In this document: positions 6,375-25,888 of the stretch, one piece after another | Position numbering within the stretch: the stretch's first letter is position 1 | How the letters are laid out: the number at the start of each line of letters is the position of its first letter | Virus record (IMG/VR): IMGVR_UViG_3300025052_000002 | Span: 1 to 26,612 of that record | Reading direction: 5' to 3' (one strand) | Origin: a virus | Length of the DNA: 26,612 nt | Program-made: the position numbers and the translations under genes | The notes under the pieces: generated by a model | Databases searched by the model: none | What the model saw: the letters and a program-made list of their open reading frames with translations, nothing else | What the model was told of the DNA's origin: nothing

Positions 6375-7412
6375 TCAGGATTTACCCTTACGCCGTAGAA
6401 ACTTCAAAAAATCTACCCCGGTGTCCACATCATGGAATACCGTTATGAGGCCGGGGTCATCATCTTCCCTTTCAGGATTGATCACCGTCATAACGGCTGC
6501 TGAAATATTCTGGTTCCGTAATCCAAGTTGTTTCGCATAATTATCGTAAATCTTGTAAGATGCAACCCGTAACGCATGAGTGATCAAACCTGAGTTGGGC
6601 TGCTTGACCAACTGATACCCTGAAATATGCCTATGACCACTGATTACTATGTGGTCACCGATCCCCATCTGGGCTGCTTTCGCAGGTCCATGAGTGGGGT
6701 TCCACTGAGAATGCCCGCTCCAGTCATGCCGTGCATTAACCCGGACTTCCTTGCCATTAGGAAATGCCAAACTAATTCTGGCACCGTGCGCCTGATAAAC
6801 TCCTGTTTGTTTACGGACCATCCATTCTATCGGATTTCCATCCCCAACCCAGAGATCATGGTTGCCACCAATCAGATATAGCCAGTCCACACTACTGACA
6901 ATCCACTCCACCAGCTTCCACGTTTCCGCTTCAGTAACAGTAGAATGCGCGTGAAGACGAGCGAGCCGTCCAACCCAGTGATCGGCCATATCCCCAACAT
7001 TGGCCCCGAATAATCCCTGCGTCTTGGAGATAACATCGACATGATGTGCAAGCAGATCAATCGAAGTGCCGGGATTATCTATGTGATTGTCCCCCATGTG
7101 GAGAATAGCGATTGGCCCGTCAATATTTACCTTACACTTAATGAGATTGCGGGACTTCTCCGACGCCTCCTTGCGGAGGAACTCCGATCTCCTTCTTTCG
7201 ATAATCTCTTCAAGGGGGGCGGCCTCATCCGCCAGCGCCTTCTTGTCAATATAGAACTCAGGTTTCTCAGCGAATCTTTTCTTGGCAGCATTAATACGTC
7301 TTCTCATCGAAGACTTGGAAACCCCCAAAGAGTCTCCAGCCGCTTTCAGTGAACCATGAAATTCATAGGCCTCTTGGGCCTCTTGTAAATCTTCGTCCGT
7401 AAAACTTGCCAT
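6375..7412 (-). CDS. HTH-fused calcineurin-like metallophosphoesterase
   Basis: The protein has 345 residues. Residues ~8-48 form a resolvase-type helix-turn-helix (LQEAQEAYEFHGSLKAAGDS, then LGVSKSSMRRRI). Residues ~100-275 hold the calcineurin-like phosphoesterase motifs in order: GDNHID (D108, H110), GD at 140-141, GNHD at 183-186, ARHDW around H229, and ISGHRH at 258-262. These residues bind two metal ions and hydrolyse phosphoesters; the substrate cannot be read from sequence and could be DNA, RNA or a small phosphoester. The gene starts 12 bases after the large-terminase stop and lies in the packaging-portal run. Phosphoesterases of this type, with an HTH front, occur beside terminases in other phages; a role linked to DNA packaging or end processing is inference. 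Confidence 0.82.
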   Translation of the reverse strand: MASFTDEDLQEAQEAYEFHGSLKAAGDSLGVSKSSMRRRINAAKKRFAEKPEFYIDKKALADEAAPLEEIIERRRSEFLRKEASEKSRNLIKCKVNIDGPIAILHMGDNHIDNPGTSIDLLAHHVDVISKTQGLFGANVGDMADHWVGRLARLHAHSTVTEAETWKLVEWIVSSVDWLYLIGGNHDLWVGDGNPIEWMVRKQTGVYQAHGARISLAFPNGKEVRVNARHDWSGHSQWNPTHGPAKAAQMGIGDHIVISGHRHISGYQLVKQPNSGLITHALRVASYKIYDNYAKQLGLRNQNISAAVMTVINPEREDDDPGLITVFHDVDTGVDFLKFLRRKGKS

Positions 7413-12059: not shown

Positions 12060-12572
12060 CTAGCCGCTACCGCCAAGGAGGGATGTTAATTTACGCTCCA
12101 GTTCTGCTTTGACCTGCTGCGGGCTCTCATTACTGCTTGAAGTTTCAATCACTGAAGTGAATAGCCGCACCTGACTGTCTTTTCCCAGTAATTCAAGTGA
12201 ACGACAAACCACGGCATCGCTGGTGTCAGGATCTTGGGCGAGGGCTTCCAGCCGCTCCACGATCCACCGCCTTCGGGAGAGGGCTGAGGAAACCGCAGAC
12301 CGCTCTATACTATCCCGATTGGCCTGTAGTCTACGGGCTATCTCAGGGTGACCCATAAGCAGGCTGGCCTCAGTATAGATTGCGCTGGGCTTCATACCTT
12401 TGGCCTCGTAGGCTGTACGGTAGGCATCCGCTTGCGTCGAGCCCTTGATCACCTCCGCAACGAAGCGCTCTTGCTTGGCTGTAAGGCGTCGCTTTTTGGC
12501 TGTAGCCTTGGCTTTCGGCGGGGGCGAATCACCTTCGATGATGTACAAATCAGGCTTCTTTTTATCGGTCAT
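12060..12572 (-). CDS. terS: Terminase small subunit
   Basis: The protein has 170 residues. After a basic N-terminus (KAKATAKKRR), residues ~30-85 match the small-terminase DNA-binding region: LTAKQERFVAEVIKGSTQAD, AYRTAYEAKGMKPSAIYTEA and SLLMGHPEIARRLQANRDSI, the usual helix-turn-helix pattern in which stacked helices recognise repeated sites. The rest is helical and would form the oligomer and the large-subunit contact. It recognises phage DNA and starts packaging by the large subunit. AGGA lies about 8 bases before ATG. In most phages terS and terL touch; here seven genes and two control regions separate them. A candidate promoter lies at 12730-12758. Confidence 0.88.
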   Translation of the reverse strand: MTDKKKPDLYIIEGDSPPPKAKATAKKRRLTAKQERFVAEVIKGSTQADAYRTAYEAKGMKPSAIYTEASLLMGHPEIARRLQANRDSIERSAVSSALSRRRWIVERLEALAQDPDTSDAVVCRSLELLGKDSQVRLFTSVIETSSSNESPQQVKAELERKLTSLLGGSG

Positions 12573-12722
12573 GGTCCTGCTCTCTCTGTGTTCTATCCCC
12601 TGTAATGTACAGTGAGTGGGCGTTGTAGGCCACTGGGATAAGTTGTGTTGTAGTGGGTCTTGTTGTGTGAGACAACATGGCTACGCCCTGCGGCACGTTG
12701 CTTGTTACACGAGGGCCACTGC

Positions 12723-12758
12723 TCTGAAGATTGTAGCAGTTGAGTTGGGTACTGCGAA
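12723..12758 (-). promoter_or_regulatory. Candidate sigma-70 promoter for terS
   Basis: On the minus strand TTCGCA (12758-12753; 4 of 6 to the -35 consensus), a 17-base spacer and TACAAT (12735-12730; 5 of 6 to the -10 consensus) are in ideal register, and the TG of an extended -10 (TGC before TACAAT) is present. The start would be near 12723, giving a leader of about 150 bases to the terS ATG. Confidence 0.55.
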
Positions 12759-13176
12759 TGTTAGCCCCAGCCAGCCAAGCGCGAAAAGTAGAGTGGCAAG
12801 TGTACTTGTAAGGCCCAGCCCGCTCCGGTACACCGCGTAGGAAGTGAAGACACCTACAGCTTTTGAAAGTCAAACCACTCAGTTGCTAGCAACGATGCTT
12901 GCCAGCTAGTCAGCAACTGGGACACCTCAACATCATTCTGAAGATAGCGTGCTGTGCCGTAGGCAATGCCTTTTCAGGCGGCGGTAAGCGGAACCACACA
13001 GTGTGAGTTAGACACCAACCTCTACTGCGACCCATTGCTTGGCAGCGGGCGAGCGGTTTAGTGCGGAGCAAGACGCGAAAGGAATGTTTGTTGTCTCAAC
13101 CCTGAGTGCAAAGGGGTTGCTTGTCACTGACAGATCAAGAGGGAAGACAGTCACTAACCAATGAGAGTTTATGGTG

Positions 13177-13194
13177 CGAGGGCTCAGGCCCTCG
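13177..13194 (+). other. Stem-loop upstream of the first plus-strand gene
   Basis: CGAGGGC and GCCCTCG form a perfect 7-bp stem with loop TCAG. No U-run follows, so it is not a standard terminator. It lies about 70 bases before the first early ATG and is the first of a series of such stem-loops in the early arm. Confidence 0.5.
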
Positions 13195-13266
13195 TATCCA
13201 CAAGGGCAGGCCAGTTCCTGCTCTTCTGGATGCAAACTGCATCAACCACTCAATCAGAGGTGACCA

Positions 13267-13533
13267 ATGGACGGTTTGATCTTCGGATTTGTTGATAACT
13301 TCGTACTGCTTATCGGAGCCTACACCGGCCTCGAAGTAGAGAAGTTCCTACCCAAGCGTTTCCAAGTTGGCGTTGGCGCGGTTGCCGGTGCCGGTATCGG
13401 GAACACAGTATCAGATGCAGCGGGTGCGCTGATCGACCCTGCACTTTTCAGCATGGTCGGCGGCATCACCATAGGATGTTTGATCCCGCTGTTCGCAATC
13501 CCGCTGATCACAAAGATAAGGGAGACTGACTAA
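13267..13533 (+). CDS. Small Gly-rich integral membrane protein
   Basis: The protein has 88 residues. Residues ~4-20 (LIFGFVDNFVLLIGAYTG) and ~62-82 (MVGGITIGCLIPLFAIPLIT) are hydrophobic, and the central part VGVGAVAGAGIGNTVSDAAG is a Gly/Ala-rich amphipathic or membrane-embedded segment with the conserved-looking LEVEKFLPKRFQ in front. I recall similar short proteins in marine phages and some bacteria but no function. AGAGGTGACCA precedes the ATG. It is the first gene of the plus-strand arm, so it may be expressed first; a role at the host membrane is inference. Its stop and the next start share one base (TAATG). Confidence 0.72.
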   Translation: MDGLIFGFVDNFVLLIGAYTGLEVEKFLPKRFQVGVGAVAGAGIGNTVSDAAGALIDPALFSMVGGITIGCLIPLFAIPLITKIRETD

Positions 13534-13765
13534 TGACTGCAAAATCACAGCTTACCGCTGCTATCGCCTACCCCGACACTCTGATCCAGAACATGGCCTC
13601 AGAGGTCGTTGACTATCTTGGCGACACTGGAGTGGTTGAGTTCAGCGACGATGGCAAGGTTCAAATCTTGCTGGAAGCTGCTGCTCAGATTAACCCGGCG
13701 GTGCGGGATGTGGCCGACACATTGGTAGCAACAATCAACCGCGTGAAGGGAGACTGACTAATGAC
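13518..13765 (+). repeat. Pair of identical 20-bp RBS modules
   Basis: The 20 bases at 13518-13537 recur exactly at 13746-13765. Each copy holds an AGGGAG Shine-Dalgarno, the end of one gene and the ATGAC start of the next. The coding sequences on each side are unrelated, so the module itself is what has been duplicated or conserved. Confidence 0.8.
13533..13757 (+). CDS. Small acidic protein of unknown function
   Basis: The product has 74 residues (start MTAKSQLTAAIAYPDTLIQN, end ADTLVATINRVKGD), helical and mildly acidic, with no Cys, membrane segment or known motif. The start is fixed by the TAATG junction with the preceding gene and by the AGGGAG about 10 bases upstream. The short middle DYLGDTGVVEFSDDGKVQIL looks like a beta-hairpin. 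No family was recognised. It forms a compact operon with its two neighbours. Confidence 0.65.
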   Translation: MTAKSQLTAAIAYPDTLIQNMASEVVDYLGDTGVVEFSDDGKVQILLEAAAQINPAVRDVADTLVATINRVKGD

Positions 13766-13970
13766 CACTGGAATGTGGACAAAGAAGGAAACGCAACAGA
13801 CCCTGCGGGAGTTGCGTAAGGCTGGCTACGCTGTCGCCAATGACGATGGCTTCTACACGGTGACAATACCGGGGGAAGACTCAGGCAAGTCATACCTGAC
13901 GGCAATGGTAGACACAGACCTTGCCTTGGTCCTCGTCCGTTATGACCCCTCGCTGTTTGGTAAGGGGTGA
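13761..13970 (+). CDS. Small protein of unknown function
   Basis: The product has 69 residues: a helical front WTKKETQQTLRELRKAGYAV followed by a beta-like part with DDGFYTVTIPGEDSGKSYLT and DLALVLVRYDPSLFGKG. The pattern of one helix, then strands, is that of a small alpha/beta protein; no family was recognised. It starts 3 bases after the previous stop, behind the duplicated AGGGAG module. The 80 bases after it hold two stem-loops. Confidence 0.65.
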   Translation: MTTGMWTKKETQQTLRELRKAGYAVANDDGFYTVTIPGEDSGKSYLTAMVDTDLALVLVRYDPSLFGKG

Positions 13971-13983
13971 GCCCACTGAGGAT

Positions 13984-14023
13984 GGCCCCGTGGTGAGGGC
14001 CGAAACCCAGCACGTCGCTGGGT
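13984..14023 (+). other. Tandem stem-loops upstream of the ardC-like gene
   Basis: GGCCC (13984-13988) pairs with GGGCC (13997-14001) over an 8-base loop. ACCCAGC (14005-14011) pairs exactly with GCTGGGT (14017-14023) over ACGTC. No U-run follows either. They fill the gap between two plus-strand genes and end about 27 bases before the next ATG. Confidence 0.6.
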
Positions 14024-14049
14024 CTGGGTAACCAAACAAGTGAGGGACC

Positions 14050-15003
14050 ATGACCAAAAAAGAGAAACGAGATATCCGCCAAGAGGTCACCGACAAGGTG
14101 GTCGCGGCAATCGAGAGCATGAACGACGGCGACGTGAACTGGATCAAGAGTTGGTTCACGGTTAACGACAGGCCGACAAGCAAGTCGAGCGGCAAGCCCT
14201 ACCAAGGGATCAACTGGTTTATCCTGTCAATGGTACAGTCAATCGAAGGCTACGAGTCAAATCAGTGGGGAACATTCAACTACTGGTTCAAGGCTGGTGG
14301 CGGTGAGCGTGAAGGCAAGACGGTAACCAAAGAGTCGAGGTACTCTGTCAAAGGTCAGAAAGGCACACAGGTGGTGCTGTACAAGCCAATGACATTCACA
14401 GAGACCGATGACACTGGTAAGAAAGTGACCAAGTCGTTCCCCTTAATGAAGGGCTTCACGGTCTTCAACGCCGATCAGGTCGAAGGCTACACTGTTGAGC
14501 CAATGGATATAGTTGGCAAGGTAGATGAGTGTGAGGAGCCAGTGGTTGCGGTTAATAACCTGATGGCAACATTGGGCATTAAGCTGGTACATAAGGACAA
14601 AAATCGCGCCTTCTATACTCCTCCGATTGACACGGTTAACTCGCCGCTGCCTGCTCAGTTCGATAGTGCTGAGGCCTACGCCTGCACTAACCTGCATGAG
14701 ACAGGACACGCCACTGGCCACGAGTCGAGACTGAACCGTGACCTGAAGAACCACTTCGGAGATCAGGCCTACGCTTTTGAGGAACTGATTGCTGAGTTGT
14801 TCAGTGCCATGATGGCTGGCGAGTTAGGCATTGCACCGACACCTCGTGAGGACCACGCCCACTATCTAAAGGGCTGGCTCAAGAAGCTGAAGGAAGACAA
14901 GTTCGCTATCTTCCGGGCAGTCGCAGCGGCTCAGAAGGCCGCCGACTGGGTACACGATGCAACGGAGGTGTCTGAGGAAGACACCTTCGCAGAGGCAGCG
15001 TAA
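14050..15003 (+). CDS. ArdC-like antirestriction protein (ssDNA-binding plus zincin)
   Basis: The protein has 317 residues. The N-terminal half (about 8-145) matches the ArdC/TraC N-terminal ssDNA-binding domain (DUF1738): SSGKPYQGINWFILSM, WGTFNYWFKAGG, VKGQKGTQVVLYKPM and FPLMKGFTVFNADQVEGY are its landmarks. The C-terminal half is a zincin-like metallopeptidase domain with HETGH at 216-220, followed by ATGHESRLNR and a third-ligand region FEELIAELFSAMMA at 243-256. Plasmid and phage ArdC-type proteins protect incoming single-stranded or freshly injected DNA from restriction. Early position fits a protein that acts soon after injection. All key residues are present. Two tandem stem-loops and a GTGAGGGACC leader precede the ATG. 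Confidence 0.87.
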   Translation: MTKKEKRDIRQEVTDKVVAAIESMNDGDVNWIKSWFTVNDRPTSKSSGKPYQGINWFILSMVQSIEGYESNQWGTFNYWFKAGGGEREGKTVTKESRYSVKGQKGTQVVLYKPMTFTETDDTGKKVTKSFPLMKGFTVFNADQVEGYTVEPMDIVGKVDECEEPVVAVNNLMATLGIKLVHKDKNRAFYTPPIDTVNSPLPAQFDSAEAYACTNLHETGHATGHESRLNRDLKNHFGDQAYAFEELIAELFSAMMAGELGIAPTPREDHAHYLKGWLKKLKEDKFAIFRAVAAAQKAADWVHDATEVSEEDTFAEAA

Positions 15004-15030
15004 CTAACACACAGAAAAGGGAGAAGAACT

Positions 15031-15360
15031 GTGGACGTGAACATTATTTTTTGCAGGCACTTGCTGAGTGCGCTCAGGCCTGACCTCGCAAGACTTGGGC
15101 TGCGTACCTTCAAGGATGCCTCGCTCTGTGACTTTTCTTATCCACGAGGAAAGAGTGGGGCTAAGGACTACCACTTTGAGACAAGCCTCAAGCGGTGTGA
15201 CTATGTCGAGGGCGCTGATCGGCACGACAACTACTTCAACATATATCTAGTGGCCGACAACGCCTACGAGGCACGCTACAACGGATGGGTTGCGTATCTC
15301 AGGCACATTGGTGTGCCCGACTATCAGATACCCGGCATCGACGACGTTGATGAGGGATAA
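15031..15360 (+). CDS. Small protein of unknown function (GTG start)
   Basis: The product has 109 residues. GTG at 15031 is chosen because AGGGAG lies about 9 bases before it; a second GTG two codons later is possible. The protein contains RPDLARLGLRTFKDASLCDF near the front and a D/Y-rich C-terminal half with DNYFNIYLVADNAYEARYNG and VPDYQIPGIDDVDEG. It is acidic and soluble, with no known motif. It lies directly after the ArdC-like gene, with 27 bases between, and may share its transcript; whether it shares its role is unknown. Confidence 0.65.
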   Translation: MDVNIIFCRHLLSALRPDLARLGLRTFKDASLCDFSYPRGKSGAKDYHFETSLKRCDYVEGADRHDNYFNIYLVADNAYEARYNGWVAYLRHIGVPDYQIPGIDDVDEG

Positions 15361-15370
15361 GACAACGGCG

Positions 15371-15427
15371 CAGCGGGGCAACCCGCTGTACCCACAAGCA
15401 TCACAGCTTAGGCGGGTGCTTCTGGGT
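15371..15427 (+). other. Two stem-loops in the 15361-15463 gap
   Basis: CAGCGGG (15371-15377) and CCCGCTG (15382-15388) form a perfect 7-bp stem closed by GCAA, a GNRA tetraloop. ACCCACAAGCA (15390-15400) pairs with TGCTTCTGGGT (15417-15427) with one mismatch over a 16-base loop. No U-run follows. They account for most of the 100-base gap. Confidence 0.6.
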
Positions 15428-15463
15428 GCTGACGCACTACACACTAATCAAGGAAGGTGAGAG

Positions 15464-15730
15464 ATGTTGACCATTAAAAAAATCCCACAAGAAGTTTACG
15501 CAGTGGCGCTCGACTATATGAATCTTGATCGGGCGGAAGATAGTGACCACTCTGCCACATATTACGAGATTGTTGATCGTCGCGGTTGGACGGCTTCCGA
15601 ATTGGAGCAGGCGATCTCAGACTATCTGTTGAGTGCTGGATCGTTTGGTGACGGGGGAGAGTTCGAGGACGTTTGTGGTCACAGCTTGAGCCCGTTGCCT
15701 GAACTTATGGATGATGAGGAGGTATCCTGA
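15464..15730 (+). CDS. Small acidic protein of unknown function
   Basis: The product has 88 residues and is strongly acidic toward the C-terminus (PELMDDEEVS). It is mostly helical, with VYAVALDYMNLDRAEDSDHS and RRGWTASELEQAISDYLLSA as the recognisable stretches. No Cys pair or membrane segment is present. GGAAGGTGAGAG precedes the ATG. Its last base is shared with the ATG of the next gene (TGATG junction), so the two are translationally coupled. It ends in EEVS, as does its neighbour, because of a duplicated RBS module. No family was recognised; small acidic early proteins often bind and inhibit host proteins, but nothing here shows that. Confidence 0.65.
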   Translation: MLTIKKIPQEVYAVALDYMNLDRAEDSDHSATYYEIVDRRGWTASELEQAISDYLLSAGSFGDGGEFEDVCGHSLSPLPELMDDEEVS

Positions 15731-15987
15731 TGACTGATATTCTAGGACGTTTACCGTGCAACCATGAATGGTTGAGCGATGGTGATGTGCCGTCTCACAT
15801 CAACGTAGAGAAAGCGGATAGGTATGGCACCCCTGTCTACCGTCCCGACTGCTCTTTGAGTCGGCTGCTCGTGCGGATGAAAAAGCACAACGCGAAAGAG
15901 TTAACCAGTGAGATGCTCTACGAGATCAGGTCTGCTGGTCTACGCATCTACAACCAGTATGGTGAGGAGGTATCCTGATGACTGATA
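15715..15987 (+). repeat. Pair of identical 25-bp gene-junction modules
   Basis: The 25 bases at 15715-15739 recur exactly at 15963-15987. Each copy encodes the end EEVS of one gene, carries GAGGAGG as Shine-Dalgarno, and includes the TGATG junction and MTD start of the next gene. Both flanking gene pairs are otherwise unrelated in sequence. Confidence 0.85.
15730..15978 (+). CDS. Small protein of unknown function
   Basis: The product has 82 residues, beginning MTDILGRLPCNHEWLSDGDV and ending IYNQYGEEVS. It is mixed in charge, with SRLLVRMKKHNAKELTSEML as a basic amphipathic helix. One Cys-x-His (CNH) is present, but no full metal site. Both ends lie in copies of the same 25-bp module, so this gene is bracketed by identical junctions. 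That arrangement would let it be lost or duplicated by homologous recombination without harming its neighbours. No family was recognised. Confidence 0.65.
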   Translation: MTDILGRLPCNHEWLSDGDVPSHINVEKADRYGTPVYRPDCSLSRLLVRMKKHNAKELTSEMLYEIRSAGLRIYNQYGEEVS

Positions 15988-16826
15988 AATTCTTTGAGGA
16001 GATGAGAGCGTTGGAGGAATGGCCGCCGAAGCAGCCGGTCAAAGAGGACAAGCGCGAGAAGTTCCCGTGTCAGCCATGCGCTGGGACTGGCCGCTGGTCT
16101 GGTGGATACAATCAGCATGGCGAGAAGAAATGTTTTGCCTGCAACGGCAAGGGGTTCTTTCTAAGCAGCGAGCATGACCGCCGCAAGGCACGTCAGAAGA
16201 GAGCGGAGAGCAAGTCGAACAGGAACAGGCTGGCTGCTGCTCAGGCTGCGCTCACTGAGGAACACCCCACCTTAATGGGTGACCTCCGGGGGATGACTGA
16301 GTGGAACAGCTTTGCCGCCAGCTTGGTGGAGCAGTTCAATACCCGTGGCTTCCTGTCGGAGAACCAAGTCAACGCTGCCTACAAAATGATCGCCAAGACC
16401 GCCGCAACTAAGAAGGCCAAGGCGAAGGCACGCGATGACGCTGCTGTTGAGGTGGACCTGTCAACAATCAGAGCCATGTTCAACCGCGCCGTTGAGAAAG
16501 GCCACAAGCGTCCGACGTACAGGGCACTGGGCCTGATCATATCCCGCGCACCTGATCATGGTAACAACGCCGGGGCACTCTACATCAAGACAGAGGGCGA
16601 CCAGTACCAAGGCAAGATCACGGCAGAGGATAAGTTCTACGCTGTTAGCAGCGCAGACTCAGCCACAAGCGAGAGCCTGAAGGTGATTGCTGCTGACCCG
16701 ACCGATGCTGCTGTAAAGTACGGACGGCTGACTGGGAATTGCAGTTGCTGCGGCAGAACCCTCACTAACAAACTCAGCATTGAGCGGGGCATTGGTCCCA
16801 TCTGTGCTGACCGCATGGGACTATAG
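15978..16826 (+). CDS. DnaJ-type zinc-finger protein with C-terminal DUF6011-like domain
   Basis: The protein has 282 residues. Residues 31-60 have two CxxCxGxG knuckles (CQPCAGTGRW with C31/C34 and CFACNGKGF with C52/C55), the DnaJ central-domain pattern. Residues ~62-85 are a basic helix (HDRRKARQKRAESKSNRNRL). The middle (100-240) is a Lys/Ala-rich domain. The C-terminal ~30 residues have CSCCGRTLTNKLSIERGIGP followed by IC, the DUF6011 signature: a four-Cys zinc site with the GIGP-C motif. DUF6011-bearing phage proteins are nucleic-acid associated as far as I recall, with no defined activity. No J-domain is present, so it is not a chaperone. The start is fixed by a TGATG junction. Confidence 0.75.
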   Translation: MTDKFFEEMRALEEWPPKQPVKEDKREKFPCQPCAGTGRWSGGYNQHGEKKCFACNGKGFFLSSEHDRRKARQKRAESKSNRNRLAAAQAALTEEHPTLMGDLRGMTEWNSFAASLVEQFNTRGFLSENQVNAAYKMIAKTAATKKAKAKARDDAAVEVDLSTIRAMFNRAVEKGHKRPTYRALGLIISRAPDHGNNAGALYIKTEGDQYQGKITAEDKFYAVSSADSATSESLKVIAADPTDAAVKYGRLTGNCSCCGRTLTNKLSIERGIGPICADRMGL

Positions 16827-16841
16827 AAAGGAAGGTGCGTT

Positions 16842-17072
16842 ATGAAACGCAAGACTAACCCTGTCGCTCGTGCCCTTAGCACGGGCAGGCAGGGTAACCC
16901 TGTTACCCATAGGGATGAGCCCTCCTATGCCCACTCCAAGGGCCGTAGGCGGCATCCTAAACACAAAGGTGCGGCGGATAGCTCCGCCGTATCCACCAGC
17001 ACATCAGATGGGTGTGCTGATGGATGCGAAGGCATCGATGACCAACCAATAGATGAGGTAACTGACCAATGA
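16842..17072 (+). CDS. Small basic NPVA-type phage protein invaded by palindromes
   Basis: The product has 76 residues. The N-terminal 45 residues (MKRKTNPVARAL, PVTHRDEPSYAHSKGRRR and HPKHKGAAD) resemble a group of very small basic phage proteins that begin NPVA and contain THRD and a basic KHKG part; I recall them as 40-60 residues long. The remainder is Ser/Asp-rich, low-complexity sequence. Five inverted repeats overlie the coding DNA (16866-17022), which could explain the extra residues between ARAL and THRD and the odd C-terminus. AAGGAAGG precedes the ATG; the stop overlaps the next ATG by 4 bases. Function is unknown. Confidence 0.6.
   Translation: MKRKTNPVARALSTGRQGNPVTHRDEPSYAHSKGRRRHPKHKGAADSSAVSTSTSDGCADGCEGIDDQPIDEVTDQ
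16866..17022. repeat. Run of five palindromes within one small gene
   Basis: CGTGC/GCACG (16869-16883, extendable to 16866-16886 with a G-U pair), GGGTAAC/GTTACCC (16892-16908, loop CCT), AGGG/CCCT (near 16911-16923), CGGCGGA/TCCGCCG (16972-16989, loop TAGC) and CAGCACA/TGTGCTG (16997-17019), the last overlapping an alternative CATCAG/CTGATG (17002-17022). Stems differ in sequence, and no U-run follows any of them. Confidence 0.7.
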
Positions 17073-17263
17073 AGATGCATGATGTATTTGGATTTGCGGC
17101 ACTCGCTTTCTGGACTGTCGCAACATTCGGGCTGGCTTGGGCAGGGCTCAACAGCCAGACCTTTACCACAACACTGTTCGTTATGACTGTCGCAACATCC
17201 CTCTTCGGATTGATTGCGTTGATCTTCGCCGTCGAGTTGAAGGTGAGAGAGAACAGGCAATGA
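17069..17263 (+). CDS. Small two-helix membrane protein
   Basis: The product has 64 residues with two predicted membrane helices: FGFAALAFWTVATFGLAWAG (about 7-27) and FVMTVATSLFGLIALIFAVE (about 37-56), joined by a short polar loop LNSQTFTTTL and ending in a charged tail KVRENRQ. There is no cleavable signal peptide. The ATG overlaps the previous stop by 4 bases, and its stop overlaps the next ATG by 4 bases. Two small membrane proteins in tandem could act in lysis timing or in blocking superinfection, but in this early-type cluster lysis is not implied; the function is unknown. Confidence 0.65.
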   Translation: MKMHDVFGFAALAFWTVATFGLAWAGLNSQTFTTTLFVMTVATSLFGLIALIFAVELKVRENRQ

Positions 17264-17361
17264 AACTATCTGATTGTGACCGAGAGGTGATCGGAGCCGT
17301 CCTGTTTGGAATTGTAGCAGCGATCCCAATCATGCTGTTAGTAGCTGTATTTATTTTGTAA
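17260..17361 (+). CDS. 33-residue single-span membrane protein
   Basis: The ATG at 17260 overlaps the stop of the preceding membrane-protein gene (ATGA). The product is short: a polar front MKLSDCDREVIGAV, then a hydrophobic helix LFGIVAAIPIMLLVAVFIL to the end. It is in frame with a longer open frame beginning at 17137, but the upstream part is Arg-rich shadow sequence of the previous gene. The tight 4-base overlap, repeated throughout this phage, supports it as a real gene. Function is unknown; it may act with the two-helix protein upstream. Confidence 0.55.
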   Translation: MKLSDCDREVIGAVLFGIVAAIPIMLLVAVFIL

Positions 17362-17372
17362 GGGAGAATGGA

Positions 17373-17570
17373 ATGATGAGACGCATAGCATTTTTCATTG
17401 AGACTATCCCACCCTATGAGGAGCAGCACTACTGGGGCACCTCAGAGGAGGCCGTCATAGCAGAGCTTGAGAAGGAAGGCTACAAGGTAGACTTTATCGA
17501 AAGCACTGCTGGGTGGGAGAGTGAGAGTGGTTGCGGGATGCCTGATCACCCACCGGAAGGAGGTTACTGA
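17373..17570 (+). CDS. Small acidic protein of unknown function
   Basis: The product has 65 residues. Two ATG codons in tandem lie behind AAGGGAGAATGGA, so the start could be either Met. It has a beta-alpha-beta look: RRIAFFIETIPPYEEQHYWG, then TSEEAVIAELEKEGYKVDFI, then a Gly/Glu-rich end with SGCGMPDHPPEGGY. The middle helix-strand (EEAVIAELEKEGYKVDFIE) resembles half of a small alpha/beta domain, but no family was recognised. It lies 11 bases after the small membrane-protein gene. The following 150 bases hold two stem-loops and a promoter. Confidence 0.6.
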   Translation: MMRRIAFFIETIPPYEEQHYWGTSEEAVIAELEKEGYKVDFIESTAGWESESGCGMPDHPPEGGY

Positions 17571-17578
17571 AGAAGCGA

Positions 17579-17658
17579 ATCGGTGATGGCTCACGAGCCT
17601 GAACCGATGTGATTCACAGAGGAGGCACACGCTGTAACCCGCAGTGGGTGCGCGTGTG
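17579..17658 (+). other. Two long stem-loops in the 17571-17722 gap
   Basis: The first (17579-17608) has ATCGGT/ACCGAT outside and GGCTC/GAGCC inside, with a symmetrical 3x3 internal loop. The second (17626-17658) has CACACGC/GCGTGTG outside and ACCC/GGGT inside, loop GCAGT. Neither is followed by a U-run. They lie directly before an extended -10 promoter. Confidence 0.65.
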
Positions 17659-17676
17659 GAGCTTTGTGTCTGTTCG

Positions 17677-17685
17677 TGCTATACT
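17677..17685 (+). promoter_or_regulatory. Candidate extended -10 promoter
   Basis: TGCTATACT matches the extended -10 pattern TGnTATAAT with one mismatch. No clear -35 lies 17 bases upstream, as is usual for extended -10 promoters. The start would be near 17692, about 30 bases before the ATG at 17723, in one of the few gaps of this arm. Confidence 0.5.
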
Positions 17686-17722
17686 AACATCTGCTGTTTG
17701 ACAATGTGAGGAGACCAGACTG

Positions 17723-18292
17723 ATGAATCAAATTCATCAAGACTACAATCGTTGTGTCAACGACAAGTGGACGGCGGCGCTTGCAGAGGAGGGGGCAAAC
17801 AGGAACCCATCCGAACAGGAAGCCATCGCCGCAGTGAAGCGTCTCTATCGTAAGGCGACGGGACGCAAGCTCACAATGCCACTCAAGATTACGAGCGGCA
17901 ATCGATACACTTGGCCGAAGCGGGGTGTCTATTACGTTAACCCTGCTCGCCGTCACTGGGAGATCTCTGGCGGGTGGAAGCATCTCGTGCATGATGTCTC
18001 GCACTACTGCCATTGGCGTTTGCATCCACGAGCGAGGCCACATTCCAACAGTCAGCTTACGATTGAACGGGTGCTGACTGACTATGTCATCGATAACGGC
18101 TGGCTGCACGGCAAGTTGAAGCCGAAGGCAAAGCCGAAGCCACCTGTCGATCAGGTCGCAAAGCGTGCGGCTCAGGTGGATGCCAACATCGCCCGTTGGG
18201 AAACCAAACTGAAGAGGGCACAAGCCGCTCTCAAAAAGTACAAGGTGAAGCAACGGTACTACAAGAAGACATTCCAAGCGCGGGCTGCGTAG
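17723..18292 (+). CDS. Putative zincin-like protein with degenerate HDxxH motif and coiled-coil tail
   Basis: The protein has 189 residues. Residues ~88-125 contain WKHLVHDVSHYCHWRLHPRA followed by RPHSNSQLTIERVLTDYVID. The HDVSHYCHW core recalls the HExxH...H motif of gluzincin/SprT-like metalloproteases, with Asp in place of the catalytic Glu, plus an extra His and a downstream Glu. The region before it (KITSGNRYTWPKRGVYYVNP, ARRHWEISGG) resembles the strand-rich lead into a zincin helix. Residues 130-189 are a strongly basic Lys/Ala coiled coil. It may be a metal-binding but weakly active or inactive protease, or a nucleic-acid binding protein. AGGAG lies before the ATG. The metalloprotease assignment is tentative. 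Confidence 0.6.
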   Translation: MNQIHQDYNRCVNDKWTAALAEEGANRNPSEQEAIAAVKRLYRKATGRKLTMPLKITSGNRYTWPKRGVYYVNPARRHWEISGGWKHLVHDVSHYCHWRLHPRARPHSNSQLTIERVLTDYVIDNGWLHGKLKPKAKPKPPVDQVAKRAAQVDANIARWETKLKRAQAALKKYKVKQRYYKKTFQARAA

Positions 18293-18307
18293 CTCAAGCA
18301 CTCAACT

Positions 18308-18328
18308 GGGGGGGCACGTTGCCCCCCC
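18308..18328 (+). other. 9-bp G/C stem-loop upstream of the 18346 gene
   Basis: GGGGGGGCA (18308-18316) and TGCCCCCCC (18320-18328) form a perfect stem with a 3-base loop (CGT). The next bases are TAACACGGAGG, so it directly abuts the Shine-Dalgarno of the next gene. No U-run follows. Confidence 0.65.
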
Positions 18329-18345
18329 TAACACGGAGGTAACCA

Positions 18346-18861
18346 ATGGTTACACTGACCAAAGACGAGGGGACGATGGAGATGCCAGAGTTCCTTCGAC
18401 GTTACTCACTCGACGGCCTGACTTTGGAGCGGCTGATCGTGATGACTGAACTGTTGCTCTCCCACGTTACGGGGTATGGCCCAGATAATTTCAATCGGAA
18501 AGAGATCGATGAGTTCAAGAAGAATCTCGGTGAGTTGCAGAAGCGGAAGGCCATCTGGCCAGCGCGACAGCATGAGCCCGTCGAGGCTCCCAAGCCAGAG
18601 CCTTTTGATGTGAGTACCATTGGTCTGAAGTTTCCGCTCAAAGAAAGGGTTGGTCTTCAGATCATCAAGGCCATTGAGGAAGGGCACAACACCTTCGCCC
18701 GTCTGCGTAAGGCTATCCCCGTCCTGCACATTGAAGGACAGGACATTGATATGCCCGACCGGGTATTGAAGTCAGCCCTGAATCATCTGATCAGCGGCAA
18801 GCTGAAGCAGGTCAGAGTTGTTAAACTTTCACCAAAAGTTTACGGGGTGCAGCGGAGATAG
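18346..18861 (+). CDS. Unknown protein with C-terminal winged-helix-like region
   Basis: The protein has 171 residues. The front is helical (MEMPEFLRRYSLDGLTLERL, IVMTELLLSHVTGYGPDNFN) with a charged KKNLGELQKRKAIWPARQHE segment and a Pro-rich linker near residue 80. The C-terminal ~75 residues (LKERVGLQIIKAIEEGHNTF, ARLRKAIPV, MPDRVLKSALNHLISGKLKQ, VRVVKLSPKVYGV) have the helix-helix-helix-wing order of a winged-helix DNA-binding domain. No family was recognised. GGAGGTAACCA, the phage's best RBS form, precedes the ATG, and a 9-bp stem-loop lies just before that. A regulatory role is inferred. Confidence 0.62.
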   Translation: MVTLTKDEGTMEMPEFLRRYSLDGLTLERLIVMTELLLSHVTGYGPDNFNRKEIDEFKKNLGELQKRKAIWPARQHEPVEAPKPEPFDVSTIGLKFPLKERVGLQIIKAIEEGHNTFARLRKAIPVLHIEGQDIDMPDRVLKSALNHLISGKLKQVRVVKLSPKVYGVQRR

Positions 18862-18870
18862 CCCCCCTAC

Positions 18871-18927
18871 TCTGTGGACAATGGTGTCCATAGATGATAA
18901 ACGGTGGTGTGCCATGTGGCACATCAC
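18871..18927 (+). other. Two 10-bp stem-loops upstream of the DGQQRL gene
   Basis: TCTGTGGACA (18871-18880) pairs with TGTCCATAGA (18885-18894), loop ATGG, with one G-U. GTGGTGTGCC (18904-18913) pairs with GGCACATCAC (18918-18927), loop ATGT, with one G-U. Both are 10-bp stems with 4-base loops, yet they do not share sequence. No U-run follows. The pair occupies the whole gap before the Shine-Dalgarno of the next gene. Confidence 0.7.
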
Positions 18928-18947
18928 ACAAAGCAAGGAAGGTAACC

Positions 18948-19859
18948 ATGCATAAGTCTATTGATAGACTGATCCATAAGAACACGACTGTCTCTCCATT
19001 TGTCGCTCCCGATAGTGGCGATGACGAGAATGGTGGACTGAAGTTGACTGTCGAGACCATCACCCCGGCTAAGGCGATGGATTATCTGGACGACAACATC
19101 TCTAACAACCGACCTGTCAGTGAGCAGCACGTTGCTGCACTCGCACGAGACATGGTCAATGACCGATGGTCTCAAAACGGAGAGACCCTGAAGTTCTCAC
19201 CGACTGGTGAGCTTCTCGATGGGCAGCAAAGATTGTCGGCCTGCATCACGGCGAACAAAGCCTTCACCACTGCGGTAGTGCGTGGCGTAGAGAGCCTTGA
19301 TGATGTTGACCGTGCCCGCCCACGTACTCTGGCCCATGCACTGGGGATGTACGGGGTCAAGCGGTCATCCAAATTGGGCGTAGTCCTGAACACAACGTGG
19401 CGTTGGGAGAACTCGAACTGGCGGATGCAACAACTGCGTCCGACAATACAGGAAGCGATGATCTTCCACCGTCAACATGAGGCCCTGCTTGGTGCCGCGA
19501 TGCGAGGTGGGCTCCAGTTACGAGAGATGGAAGGATCACTGGAGAATGCATCTCTGGTGTTCTGGCGACTGGCCCGCACCTGCGGGCAGGAGATAGCTGA
19601 ACAGTTGTTCACTCGCCTGTCGAAGAACGACTGGCAGTCCCTTAAAGATCCTCTGTTCCACTACCACTCCGTTGCTATCCGGGCGAAGGCTCAATCTCGT
19701 AAGCCTCACAAGCTGGTAAAACTGAACTGGCTGGTGCGTGGACTAGACGCTGCGCTCAATCGTGAGGATCACGACACCTATCATTTCTTGCGGTGGAACC
19801 CGGCCAATGAACTGCGGTTGTTCACGGGTGAAGAACTCAATGGAAGTGCAAGAGCTTGA
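18948..19859 (+). CDS. ParB/sulfiredoxin-like DGQQRL-motif protein
   Basis: From ATG 18948 (GGAAGGTAACC directly before it) the protein has 303 residues; the frame is open to 18894, but that part contains a stem-loop. Residues ~33-125 follow a phage family related to the ParB/Srx fold: ITPAKAMDYLDDNISNNRPV, SEQHVAALARDMVNDRWSQN, GETLKFSPTGELLDGQQRLS, then VVRGVESLDDVDRARPRTLA. DGQQRL lines the nucleotide or phosphate site in related DUF262/ParB-like proteins. The C-terminal 170 residues are helical. Homologues are frequent in phages, but the biochemical role is not known to me; DNA-binding or nuclease-like activity is a family-level inference. Its end overlaps the next gene by 20 bases. Confidence 0.75.
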   Translation: MHKSIDRLIHKNTTVSPFVAPDSGDDENGGLKLTVETITPAKAMDYLDDNISNNRPVSEQHVAALARDMVNDRWSQNGETLKFSPTGELLDGQQRLSACITANKAFTTAVVRGVESLDDVDRARPRTLAHALGMYGVKRSSKLGVVLNTTWRWENSNWRMQQLRPTIQEAMIFHRQHEALLGAAMRGGLQLREMEGSLENASLVFWRLARTCGQEIAEQLFTRLSKNDWQSLKDPLFHYHSVAIRAKAQSRKPHKLVKLNWLVRGLDAALNREDHDTYHFLRWNPANELRLFTGEELNGSARA

Positions 19860-20181
19860 ACTTATCGCTGCCTTTGAAGAGGGAGAGCTTGATCTCCCAG
19901 AGGTAGTTCTGATGACCCACCTTCTCATCAAGAGGGGGTGGGTCTGGAATATGCCTGCACCATACCAAGCATTGGCGCAGGGCTGGATCGACGTTGGGAT
20001 TCTGGATGATCCAAGGAAGGTAACAATGGACAGACCAAAGATTAAGATCGTCGTGGATGACGGTCACATAGAACAAATTATAGCAGAGAAGGGAGAGTTC
20101 GATGTCACTGTGGAAGAGAAAGACGGTGCTACCAGTACCTTCACCACGTCCCCCAATCGATCAGTGGGTAAGACAGAGTGA
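19840..20181 (+). CDS. In-frame fusion: DUF7417-like N-terminal part plus small C-terminal part
   Basis: The frame from ATG 19840 gives 113 residues. Residues 1-57 (LIAAFEEGELDLPEVVLMTH, LLIKRGWVWNMPAPYQALAQ, GWIDVGIL) resemble a short phage family I know as DUF7417-like: an acidic EGEL helix, then a W-pattern and an A-W-x-x-G-IL end. At codon 63 (20026) a second ATG lies behind AAGGAAGGTAACA, the phage's standard RBS, and begins MDRPKIKIVVDDGHIEQIIA. No stop separates the parts. Probably two genes have become one frame by loss of a stop, or the second is made separately by internal initiation as well. It overlaps the 19859 gene end by 20 bases. The second part has a single beta-hairpin look and no known motif. 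Confidence 0.6.
   Translation: MEVQELELIAAFEEGELDLPEVVLMTHLLIKRGWVWNMPAPYQALAQGWIDVGILDDPRKVTMDRPKIKIVVDDGHIEQIIAEKGEFDVTVEEKDGATSTFTTSPNRSVGKTE
20026..20181 (+). CDS. Internal 51-residue product with own RBS (possible separate gene)
   Basis: ATG 20026 sits 5-6 bases behind AAGGAAGGTAAC, as good an RBS as any in the window, and would give a 51-residue, mostly beta protein (MDRPKIKIVVDDGHIEQIIA, then EKGEFDVTVEEKDGATSTF). It is in the same frame as the upstream DUF7417-like part. Because other start sites in this arm with this exact context are clearly used, independent initiation is likely. Function is unknown. Confidence 0.5.
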   Translation: MDRPKIKIVVDDGHIEQIIAEKGEFDVTVEEKDGATSTFTTSPNRSVGKTE

Positions 20182-20302
20182 ACTACTCTGGTCTGCACAT
20201 GACTCAGCAACTGACACTGACGTTCAGAAGGAGTTCCGATTTAAACTTGGGGCGCTCGCTCGCAAGCACCAACGCTTCTATAACTTGGCGGGGGTGACAT
20301 GA
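20102..20302 (+). CDS. Small basic protein of unknown function
   Basis: ATG 20102 lies behind AAGGGAGAGTTCG, giving 66 residues. It overlaps the preceding gene by 80 bases in another frame. Residues 1-20 look like shadow sequence, while the rest (WVRQSELLWSAHDSATDTDV, QKEFRFKLGALARKHQRFYN) is a plausible helical domain. A later start may be used, but none with a good RBS is visible. Its stop overlaps the next ATG by 4 bases (ATGA), which supports that the C-terminal part is truly translated. No family was recognised. Confidence 0.5.
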   Translation: MSLWKRKTVLPVPSPRPPIDQWVRQSELLWSAHDSATDTDVQKEFRFKLGALARKHQRFYNLAGVT

Positions 20303-20472
20303 AGAATCGAACACACATCTGTCTTTCTCCTCACCATGAGGAGACGGTGAAAGAGTGGGCGGCTGATGGCTACCGAAGTTTCAGTGCCCAGATCAGCCTG
20401 CTAGTCCAGCAGGAAATCAACCGACAAGCAGTTCACGAGAGTGATAACGGAAAGGAAGCACGCGTTGCGTAG
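20299..20472 (+). CDS. Ribbon-helix-helix (Arc/MetJ-like) DNA-binding protein
   Basis: Reading by hand from the ATG at 20299 gives a complete 57-residue frame ending at TAG 20472. The order strand-helix-helix is clear: THICLSPHHEETVKEWAADG, then YRSFSAQISLLVQQEINRQA, followed by a polar tail. The short N-terminal strand (THICLS), the first helix with KEWA, the turn after GYRSFSA and the second amphipathic helix ending QQEI are typical of ribbon-helix-helix repressors, which dimerise and insert the strand pair in the DNA major groove. It overlaps the previous gene by 4 bases. It is the last gene before the inverted block and converges on the gene ending at 20433, overlapping it by 40 bases. 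Target unknown. Confidence 0.65.
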   Translation: MKNRTHICLSPHHEETVKEWAADGYRSFSAQISLLVQQEINRQAVHESDNGKEARVA

Positions 20473-20939
20473 AACGAACTTAGCACTACTAACCCTGTCT
20501 TGAGACAGGATAATGCGGCGGGGCTTGTGACCTTGGCTTCATCCGAAGCCACATGGAACACGAGCCTCGCTGTTTTTCTATTGGTCCTCTTCTGGACCTG
20601 ATGCATTGCCTTCGCAATGCGAGATACCGCAAACATCACCCGTCCACCAGCGGTGCCTCCCCTCGACAACCCCCCCTCTAAAGTGGAGAAGCAAGACTTC
20701 TTACCACCAGCCCTGCCGATGTCCCAACCTAGCTTGAGACCTGCACTGTGCTGGTCTGGCATGATTAGTTGACCGGCTAACAAACGATCCAGTTCACAAC
20801 CATCCAGAACACGCAGCCTTACGGTGCCTATACCTAGGCCTGCTGGTTCAACCTTCACTGCGTGACGCAGTGATAACTCAGGCGTCCCTAGATCAGAGGT
20901 CTCCTTGGATTTCTTCCCAGTCTGTTTGCGCTTCGGCAT
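20433..20939 (-). CDS. Unknown basic protein downstream of primase-helicase
   Basis: The frame is open from 20990, but ATG 20939 with AGGAA 9 bases before it is the likely start, giving 168 residues. The front is basic (MPKRKQTGKKSKETSDLGTP), followed by LDRLLAGQLIMPDQHSAGLK and LGWDIGRAGG, a helix pattern (L-x-x-L-x-x-G-x-I-x-x-x-x-x-x-AG) that I associate with small phage proteins next to replication genes. The C-terminal third is Ser/Ala/Leu-rich and less protein-like, with a perfect hairpin (20494-20509) in its DNA, so the true end may differ, for example through a frameshift. It overlaps the primase-helicase end by 47 bases and the ribbon-helix-helix gene by 40 bases (convergent). No function is known. 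Confidence 0.5.
   Translation of the reverse strand: MPKRKQTGKKSKETSDLGTPELSLRHAVKVEPAGLGIGTVRLRVLDGCELDRLLAGQLIMPDQHSAGLKLGWDIGRAGGKKSCFSTLEGGLSRGGTAGGRVMFAVSRIAKAMHQVQKRTNRKTARLVFHVASDEAKVTSPAALSCLKTGLVVLSSFYATRASFPLSLS
20494..20509. other. Hairpin near the convergent gene junction
   Basis: CCTGTCT (20494-20500) and AGACAGG (20503-20509) are exact inverted repeats with only TG between, so 6 bp would form with a 4-base loop. It lies just past the stop of the plus-strand ribbon-helix-helix gene and inside the 3' part of the minus-strand frame. Neither side has a U-run. It may mark the meeting point of the opposing transcripts. Confidence 0.45.
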
Positions 20940-22885: not shown

Positions 22886-23273
22886 TTTTAATGACAGCCC
22901 GTGGCTGCTCCTTGTCAAGCCCGTGGAGGATGACCTTGGCCTTGACCTGCCGATCATTGGTATAGGCTACACCTTGTAGACAATCCATTATCAGGCTCTC
23001 GTCAAGATCGGGGCGGCGGCTGGCGTAAAAGATGTGACAATATAACAACACATCGCCATCGATTAACGGGTCAATAGGAACAGCCTGATCCGCGAATAAC
23101 TTCTCATAGCCCCTCGCCTTGTCCGACTTGATGCTGGCTAATCGTTTGCCGAATCGGACGAGCTTCCTGCTGTTCGCCTTGGACGCAGGCTCACCCAAGA
23201 TCGTAACCTCAAACAACCACTTATCTATTGCTATTAGATTGCTAATGGCTATAGTGTCGGAAGGAGAACCCAT
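22866..23273 (-). CDS. rusA: RusA-type Holliday junction resolvase
   Basis: The protein has 135 residues, typical of RusA (about 120). After a short lead the fold begins LFEVTILGEPASKANSRKLV. The middle has SDKARGYEKLFADQ and PLIDGDVLLYCHIFYASRRP, then the signature DLDESLIMDCLQGVAYTNDR (89-108), in which the Asp residues form the metal-binding active site and D-x-L-QG-x-x-Y-x-ND is the family hallmark. It ends HGLDKEQPRAVIKI. RusA nucleases resolve four-way junctions made in replication and recombination. Its ATG (23271-23273) overlaps the ATG of the plus-strand nuclease (23272-23274) in CATG, so the two starts are divergent and share two bases. A later non-ATG start is possible. Confidence 0.88.
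   Translation of the reverse strand: MGSPSDTIAISNLIAIDKWLFEVTILGEPASKANSRKLVRFGKRLASIKSDKARGYEKLFADQAVPIDPLIDGDVLLYCHIFYASRRPDLDESLIMDCLQGVAYTNDRQVKAKVILHGLDKEQPRAVIKIAKHGG
23228..23255 (+). promoter_or_regulatory. Candidate promoter for the recombination operon
   Basis: TTGCTA (23228-23233), a 16-base spacer and TATAGT (23250-23255, 5 of 6 to consensus) lie just before the nuclease gene. The predicted start near 23262 leaves a leader of about 10 bases that includes part of GGAAGGAG, which is short. The promoter lies inside the divergent rusA coding region. On the other strand TATAAT (23281-23276) lies next to the rusA ATG, which would give a start site within the rusA frame. Confidence 0.45.
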
Positions 23274-24156
23274 GAATTATACCAATGAAACTAATTTGCC
23301 TGACCCTGTTGTCCGAGCCCTCACCTTCTTCCAGAAAGATGAGAAGGTAGAAGGACTTAGGGTTACTACTCTTATCGATGCACCGCAGATCAGTCAAATA
23401 AAGAAAACAAAGGAGTGGCGTAAACAGGCTACTGCCGATGTCAAGGATCTTGGGTGGCTCATGCAGGGCAGCGCCATGCATCTGGTCTTGGAGCAAGCCA
23501 ACGTGGATTCCAATTCTTACGAATCGGAGGAGCGTCTAACCGTCAAGGTGAACGGAACCCTCATTAGTGGAGCAGTTGATCTCCAGTATGTTGATGATGA
23601 TGAGGTAGACCTCTTCGATTATAAACAGACTGGTGTCTATAAGATTATCTATGGTGACTACCGAGAATGGACTAATCAATTAAATGTCTACGCCTATCTA
23701 GTTCGCAAGTGCAAGAAGAGGACTGTGCGTAGCGTCTCTGTCATCGCCATGCTGCGCGACTGGAAAGAGGCAGAAGCAAACCGCAAGTCAGACTATCCTC
23801 CAGCATCTATCATCACTATCCCGCTGACCCTGTGGTCCGAAGAGGAACAGGATGCATATGTAGAAGAGAGGGTGCGTCTCCACAATATGGCCCAGCTTGG
23901 CGCTGAGTTCGATGACCTGCCTGAGTGTAGTGATGCGGAGAGATGGGCGAGACCTGCCCAGTATGCCGTGCTGAAGGGCGACAACAAGCGGGCGCTGAGG
24001 GTCTTCGATACCCTGAAGGAGGCAGACGCATACGCCAAGAAAGATTCAAACAGGCACGTCGAGGTGAGACCCGCGACCTACACTCGTTGTGCCAACAACT
24101 ACTGTGGGGTCGCAGAATTTTGTAACCAATGGAAGGAAGGTAACAATGACCGCTAA
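23272..24156 (+). CDS. PD-(D/E)XK nuclease (RecB/Cas4-type exonuclease)
   Basis: ATG 23272 with GGAAGGAG before it gives 294 residues; the frame is open to 23119, but that part lies over rusA. Motifs in order: GWLMQGSAMHLVLE with H70; ISGAVDLQYVDDDEVDLFDY, where D103, D116 and K118 fit the D...(D/E)xK catalytic set; QLNVYAYLV (136-144), the QxxxY motif of RecB-family nucleases. The C-terminus has C273, C278 and C284 in CANNYCGVAEFC, which recall the Fe-S cluster cysteines of Cas4/AddB-type nucleases; a fourth Cys would have to come from elsewhere, possibly C148. It likely digests DNA 5'-3' to feed the annealing protein encoded next. Confidence 0.82.
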   Translation: MNYTNETNLPDPVVRALTFFQKDEKVEGLRVTTLIDAPQISQIKKTKEWRKQATADVKDLGWLMQGSAMHLVLEQANVDSNSYESEERLTVKVNGTLISGAVDLQYVDDDEVDLFDYKQTGVYKIIYGDYREWTNQLNVYAYLVRKCKKRTVRSVSVIAMLRDWKEAEANRKSDYPPASIITIPLTLWSEEEQDAYVEERVRLHNMAQLGAEFDDLPECSDAERWARPAQYAVLKGDNKRALRVFDTLKEADAYAKKDSNRHVEVRPATYTRCANNYCGVAEFCNQWKEGNNDR

Positions 24157-25000
24157 GAAAGAGGCCACCACATGGAGTGTTCTCTCAAAGATCGATTGCT
24201 CTGATCACGTCGAGAAGAAAGGCGGGTTGACCTATCTCTCGTGGGCGTGGGCATGGAAGATCCTGAAAGAGAACTTCCCCGATGCCAGCTTCGAGAAGAA
24301 CTGGTTTGAATACGGTGACCCTACCCCCTACACCCTGCCGTATGCTTTGGACAAGGGCGGCAACGCCTTCGTTAAGGTGACAGTCACGGTAGCTGGGGTA
24401 GCTATCACAGAGGTTATGCCTGTCTTGGATAATCGGAACCGCTCTGTCCAACGGCCTAACAGTTTCCAAGTCAACACTTCTTTACAGCGTTGTCTCACCA
24501 AGGCCATCGCTTACCACGGCTTGGGCTCATACATATATGCAGGAGAAGACGTGCCCGATGTGGCTGAGGAAGAGGTGGTAGTTGAGGATACCCCAGCCAA
24601 GGAAGACACGCCTGCACCAACGCCTGAAATCTCAGGAAGCCTAGATGAGTGGCGTAAGGCATTCGTTGATAATGACACCGTTGACCAGACGGATGAAGGT
24701 ATTGTTATTGCTGAAGGCAAGAACGTCGAAGGTTGGAAGCATGTGGTCGCCTGTTTTGAGGTCTTCATGCCCAGCATCGATGATGTCTGGGGAGACGGAA
24801 AGACGAAGTACGAGGATGGTGATGCCTGCGTTGCTGCCATTGAAGACTTCTACCTTGTCAACAAGAACAAAGCTATCAAGGCTCTAGGCGAGGCGCAGCC
24901 TGAGATGTTGCAGGGCCTCATTGAAATTTTCAAAGCTGCTAAGATGGCAGCGAAATCTAACAAACCCTTTACCAGAAAAGGAGTGAAGACCGATGGCTGA
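24146..25000 (+). CDS. DUF1071/Sak3-like single-strand annealing protein
   Basis: ATG 24146 behind GGAAGGTAACA gives 284 residues; the upstream part of the frame from 24089 overlaps the nuclease and is shadow. Residues ~25-145 follow DUF1071: GGLTYLSWAWAWKILKENFP, DASFEKNWFEYGD, VKVTVTVAGVAITEVMPVLD, and the end QVNTSLQRCLTKAIAYHGLG followed by SYIYAGEDVP, which is the family's best marker. DUF1071 proteins include Sak3, one of the phage single-strand annealing types. The C-terminal half is an acidic linker (EEEVVVEDTPAKEDTPAPTP) plus a helical domain with GKNVEGWKHVVACFEVFMPS, and differs from shorter family members. With the nuclease before it and the SSB-like protein after, it forms a recombination module. 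Confidence 0.82.
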   Translation: MTAKKEATTWSVLSKIDCSDHVEKKGGLTYLSWAWAWKILKENFPDASFEKNWFEYGDPTPYTLPYALDKGGNAFVKVTVTVAGVAITEVMPVLDNRNRSVQRPNSFQVNTSLQRCLTKAIAYHGLGSYIYAGEDVPDVAEEEVVVEDTPAKEDTPAPTPEISGSLDEWRKAFVDNDTVDQTDEGIVIAEGKNVEGWKHVVACFEVFMPSIDDVWGDGKTKYEDGDACVAAIEDFYLVNKNKAIKALGEAQPEMLQGLIEIFKAAKMAAKSNKPFTRKGVKTDG

Positions 25001-25885: not shown

Positions 25886-25888
25886 CCA

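Follow-up and report, generated by a model that had tools for sequence, protein, structure and literature searches.

A three-hairpin RNA family repeated at the early gene junctions of a phage lineage

In the presumed early region of a viral genome, most gaps between the genes can fold into stem-loops, which raises the question whether these are unrelated structures or copies of one RNA element, and what such an element would do in the early messenger. The stretch of DNA that was analysed, called the window below, comprises positions 1 to 26,612 (26.6 kb) of the IMG/VR virus record IMGVR_UViG_3300025052_000002. Its left part carries late genes on the minus strand, coding for the portal, the large and small terminase subunits and a GroES-like co-chaperonin, while the presumed early genes run on the plus strand from position 13267 in the right part and are followed by genes for a primase-helicase, RusA and a Sak-type annealing protein. 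The terminase is 54-59% identical to those of phages of 57-62 kb, e.g. 023Pt_psg01, Pelagibacter phage HTVC027P and DSL-LC04. The phage collection held no close DNA relatives of the window, a protein scan with the ArdC-type gene at 14050-15003 returned no relatives and in the SSAP-side relatives L002 and L006 the sequence does not extend into the early region. This early gene combines an ArdC N-terminal domain with a zincin-like metallopeptidase domain (Pfam), as in anti-restriction-type proteins.

An initial annotation, made from the letters of the DNA, had listed stem-loops in almost every early gap and ascribed them to selection for RNA structure. All of the listed stems are present and fold as described, the stem at 13984-14001 counting 5 bp only. 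When hairpins with a stem of at least 7 bp were counted, one G-U pair being allowed, the early gaps (607 nt in total) contained 7 strong hairpins compared to 0.81 in dinucleotide shuffles, a number that was reached in 0/400 shuffles, and leaving out the gaps that bear the element described below still gave 4 hairpins compared to 0.57. Coding DNA of the same early region is near chance (12 compared to 8.2), and the tightly packed operon at 23269-26344, said to lack such stems, indeed shows no excess (2 compared to 3.75 expected from shuffles). Taken gap by gap, the folding energy lies below that of shuffles in 16842-17068 (z -7.4), 18862-18947 (z -3.5), 15361-15463 (z -2.7) and 18293-18345 (z -2.5), but not significantly so in 13971-14049 (z -0.95) and 17571-17722 (z -1.35), and the gap 15004-15030 is without structure. 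The segment 16842-16962, from which copy B of the element is left out, has a z of -4.1 by itself. No U-runs follow the stems and no terminator-like match was found in these gaps, in line with the statement that they are not Rho-independent terminators. The original observation is thus largely right, with exceptions among the gaps.

Where the initial annotation had to be revised is in its view that the stems are not copies of one another, as three of the clusters (13177-13225, 15371-15427 and 16970-17019) have diverged from a single element and represent copies of it (Table 1). They share a 5' arm GGYGCR, a first hairpin closing with YGUAYC, a second hairpin framed by CA, a mismatch and UG, and finally GRUGC-loop-GCAYY, and are 53-61% identical to one another. 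In the family as a whole, the element measures about 74 nt and consists of three hairpins without linkers between them, namely P1 (GGUGCG-stem-CGYAUC), P2 (CA..UG, usually with a 1x1 mismatch) and P3 (GAUGC-GNRA-like loop-GCAUC). The covariance model R1 finds exactly three copies in the window, the next plus-strand score being 5.6 bits, and because of this the other listed hairpins are not considered family members. The putative ORF 16842-17072 (76 aa, MKRKTNPVARALSTGR...) is unusually dense in hairpins, with copy B forming its last third; its stop codon shares the sequence ATGA with the start codon of the gene that follows, and it has no PHROG match.

Table 1. Copies of the element and other hairpins in the early gaps of the window; z refers to the folding energy of each copy by itself compared to shuffles.
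Feature	Position	Strand	Parts	Model R1	z	Context
Copy A	13173..13248	+	P1 13173-13198, P2 13199-13228, P3 13229-13243	67.1 bits, E 1.1e-14	-5.8	leader of the first early gene, 13267-13533 (TMEM65-like membrane protein)
Two hairpins, non-members	13984-14001 (weak), 14005-14023 (7 bp)	+		no match		before gene 14050-15003 (ArdC-type)
Copy C	15367..15443	+	P1 15367-15392 (GCAA loop), P2 15393-15424, P3 15425-15438	60.5 bits, E 3.5e-13	-2.9	between genes 15031-15360 and 15464-15730
Two hairpins, non-members	16866-16886, 16892-16908	+		no match		inside putative ORF 16842-17072
Copy B	16968..17041	+	P1 16968-16993, P2 16994-17022, P3 17023-17036	81 bits, E 6.7e-18	-5.7	before gene 17069-17263; exceptional in overlapping the 3' end of putative ORF 16842-17072
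Two imperfect hairpins, non-members	17579..17658	+		no match		before gene 17723-18292
Single perfect 9-bp hairpin, non-member	18308..18328	+				before gene 18346-18861
Two adjacent 10-bp hairpins, non-members	18871..18927	+		2.6 bits		before gene 18948-19859

The relative L015, obtained via its terminase, contains four copies, each immediately 5' of a Shine-Dalgarno sequence and start codon, and additional copies were gathered by pattern scans of IMG/VR. Most pattern matches in viral contigs were due to chance and were dropped on fold and context, and the single match of the GTDB pattern scan (L146), the context of which holds neither P1 nor a Shine-Dalgarno sequence, also looks like chance. 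With R1, built from 13 seeds and counted at E < 1e-8, 32 distinct copies were obtained in 13 viral records, one to four per record; 19 of these were not among the seeds, many of them being further copies in records already in the set. A second model, R2, detected diverged relatives in record G015 (29.5 and 22.5 bits), one of which immediately precedes a MoxR-like gene and is without the fourth strand. On the minus strand of L312 (G015:C1:1-7500), the gaps near 5546-5620 and 6440-6500 (reverse-complement coordinates) hold diverged relatives in which P2 and P3 are kept and P1 is lost or changed, the downstream genes having a GGAGGUAACC Shine-Dalgarno sequence, which suggests that the family is wider than the two models cover. 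L156, L181, L196, L215 and L223 each carry a copy scoring 56.6 bits together with an identical extra hairpin (ACGAGTCATCAGTGACTCGT) ahead of the Shine-Dalgarno sequence, and at least one of them, L181, is a 57-kb record of a more distant phage group. No copy was present in the cultured phages with related terminases (023Pt_psg01, DSL-LC04 and HTVC027P), nor in several IMG/VR terminase relatives, the records of which may be fragments.

Among the 32 copies, 97.4% of the 798 pair cells hold standard pairs, and both the number of double changes (117 compared to 38.8 +/- 4.5 in shuffles) and the covariation score (0.493 compared to 0.208) exceed the controls, which leave kinship in and were run on an alignment fitted to the model. 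Sliding the partners by 1-3 columns reduced pairing to only 30-49%, and the pair changes are spread across different gene junctions and genomes. The pair cells contain 87 G-U pairs compared to 6 A-C mismatches, and therefore the sense RNA is the folding form; since a G-U pair in the sense strand equals A-C in the template, a hairpin in the template-strand DNA is disfavoured. All copies are moreover oriented with the downstream gene. The compensatory changes in relatives, the G-U excess and the sense orientation at gene junctions bear out the proposed selection for RNA structure. The three window copies thus belong to one structured RNA family situated at early junctions of a phage lineage, its fold kept by selection, and the element very probably does have a function in the viral mRNA.

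In the 26 copies with an adjacent upstream ORF, the median distance from the upstream stop codon to the element is 7 nt (range 3-24), and the Shine-Dalgarno sequence, usually GAGGUGA behind an A-rich linker, follows a median of 14 nt past the element end (range 8-34). Six kinds of junction are shared between phages. One precedes the TMEM65-like gene, with window copy A and its orthologues ahead of homologous genes of L046 and L157, and another precedes MoxR. A third lies between MoxR and a gene of about 300 aa and a fourth between the latter and a DUF2201 metallopeptidase/VWA gene, while the remaining two precede a gene of about 200 aa and a gene of about 100-150 aa. The succession of MoxR, element and the gene of about 300 aa is kept in L156 and L251, where the proteins are only about 21-28% identical to those of most other phages; the 339-aa gene that follows the MoxR junction had no match in Pfam, PHROG or the phage collection. 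Copies at the same junction in different genomes resemble each other more (0.71; 0.72 in the variable stems) than do those of a single genome (0.66; 0.59), and this greater likeness at the same junction points to old, largely vertical inheritance and not to recent transposition. Of the claim that the stems are no mobile repeat, the part that holds is that they have not recently been mobile, given that the copies track gene junctions, while the implied independence of the three homologous clusters does not. A REP- or MITE-like mobile repeat was rejected, as the copies are 53-61% identical, all sense and junction-linked.

The element represents a structured RNA family that is new and is used repeatedly within one phage lineage. 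Rfam 15 gave no family at the gathering threshold and none at E <= 5 in 12500-20900, and searches of open-licence papers yielded no description of the element. Covarying phage-specific cis RNAs have seldom been described. In marine samples, the manA, wcaG and PhotoRC-II motifs occur as covarying RNAs close to phage genes, frequently within potential 5' UTRs (Weinberg 2010, PMC2864571), manA and wcaG preceding metabolic genes in cyanophages (PMC2864571); unlike the present element these are Rfam families, and none matches it at E up to 5. The psaA motif resembles it in having three hairpins in 5' UTRs (PMC2864571), but differs by its UNCG loops and its association with cyanobacterial photosystem genes, and gave no match here. 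The present element recurs at successive junctions of one operon and tracks orthologous genes down to about 25% protein identity.

The function we favour, with a probability of roughly 0.38, is that of a cis-acting cassette which would separate the cistrons of the early polycistronic mRNA by processing, stabilising or insulating them, three roles that the initial annotation had put forward and that are still plausible. P1 would cap the 3' end of the upstream message, and P2, with its conserved pairs and usual mismatch, would be the recognition or cleavage site of an RNase III-type double-strand-specific nuclease or of a comparable protein. P3, whose loop is GNRA-like, would become the protected 5' end of the downstream message, directly followed by the A-rich open linker and the Shine-Dalgarno sequence, so that after a cut in or near P2 the two new ends might be shielded by P1 and P3. 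As the element fills the space between terminating and initiating ribosomes, it would also insulate the translation of neighbouring genes. The unrelated strong hairpins in other gaps of the early operon could serve the same end, and their presence suits a general role in processing or stability. Like the RNase III sites of T7-type phages, which the enzyme cuts at defined bonds, the element is a conserved but sequence-diverse RNA hairpin structure in early intercistronic gaps, shortly before the ribosome binding site; it differs from them in being a three-hairpin family with conserved P2 and P3 bases and interchangeable arms, for which cleavage is only proposed. Known RNase III sites show little sequence preference, and in P2 some pairs are invariant while neighbouring pairs vary freely; these invariant pairs make a specific binding protein fit at least as well as RNase III. 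Against a separating cassette counts that copies also head the first genes of operons (13173; L046:1162), where there is nothing upstream to separate. Simple processing moreover leaves the equal-energy alternative fold unexplained.

This second fold arises from four strands, a (GGUGC), b (GYAUC), c (GAUGC) and d (GCAUC), that can pair either as a:b and c:d, resulting in the three tandem hairpins, or as b:c and a:d, resulting in a closed three-way junction. In 27 copies either fold has 97.3% paired cells and equal covariation scores, and for almost all copies the predicted energies of the two are no more than about 1 kcal/mol apart. Columns 41/76/88 read U-A-U in 27 copies, C-G-C in 5 (copy C among them) and are mixed in none, whereas with either fold by itself one of the three columns would be unconstrained wherever column 2 is G. 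In the diverged relative L035:874-942, a and c have changed in parallel such that both still pair with b, and d is lost. The joint column changes and the parallel arms of L035 suggest that both pairings are kept, and a switch between the two folds is possible. The element might accordingly be a two-state RNA switch or protein operator, in which a phage protein, a ribosome at the upstream stop or a ligand sets the expression of the downstream gene, an explanation that we regard as less likely than the cassette. The C-G-C state may represent just two or three independent events, the Shine-Dalgarno sequence is not clearly hidden (mean 0.38 unpaired), and the resemblance of a to c and of b to d could also be maintained by gene conversion (quasi-palindrome correction), given that the arms are near-identical. 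The more specific proposal that this undescribed phage RNA family is a repeated switch, whose strands would swap partners at successive junctions of the early operon and so make the following gene's expression depend on what state the upstream cistron is in (ribosome, nuclease or phage protein), appears doubtful to us. The two equal folds do make a clear structural test possible, and the element, as a compact and defined part (74 nt plus leader), lends itself to studying how phages separate and balance expression in long early transcripts.

A role as antiterminator or anti-pausing RNA acting directly on RNA polymerase seems improbable. The model for it is the put RNA of phage HK022, which antiterminates through the beta' zinc-binding domain of RNA polymerase. 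Its putL and putR sites are about 70 nt long, contain two stem-loops and lie downstream of the early promoters (PMC9378689); the element resembles them in that its strong stem-loops adjoin one another, span about 74 nt and belong to an early phage transcript, and copy A heads the early operon. However, put RNA folds into two bulged stems plus a triple helix, and a single site per operon suffices for an effect over 10 kb or more (PMC9378689), whereas the element has three linkerless hairpins with few bulges instead of two long bulged stems and occurs in up to four copies per record, which lie at the starts of consecutive genes and are each linked to a Shine-Dalgarno sequence. Terminator-like sites between the genes are, moreover, not above chance.

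Highly improbable is an element acting at the DNA level, either a mobile palindromic repeat (REP-like) or a hairpin promoter such as N4-type phages use, to which the multiple copies per genome, the near-palindromic arms, the DnaA-box-like TATCCAC in strand b and the distant MoxR homologues of N4-type phages would be favourable, but with which the single orientation, the retention at orthologous junctions, the greater likeness of same-junction than of within-genome copies and the sense G-U excess, ill-suited to a template-strand hairpin, are hard to reconcile. A self-cleaving ribozyme, which would have a conserved unpaired catalytic core, was also considered and rejected, as there are few unpaired bases, the P3 loop is variable and no Rfam ribozyme matched.

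Two further structures were noted near early genes. Between early genes of G015, the minus strand of L312 contains at about 5250-5310 (reverse complement) a sequence, CTGGATTGCAAATCCAGACGATGCGGGTTCAAGTCCCGTCCGCTACTCCA, resembling part of a tRNA gene. In the window, the last early plus-strand gene ends at 20472 and is followed at 20489-20580 (+) by a small hairpin CCTGTC..GACAGG and then a long branched hairpin with TTTTT; this segment, with a folding z of about -6 on either strand, probably terminates the early operon at a point where the flanking genes converge.
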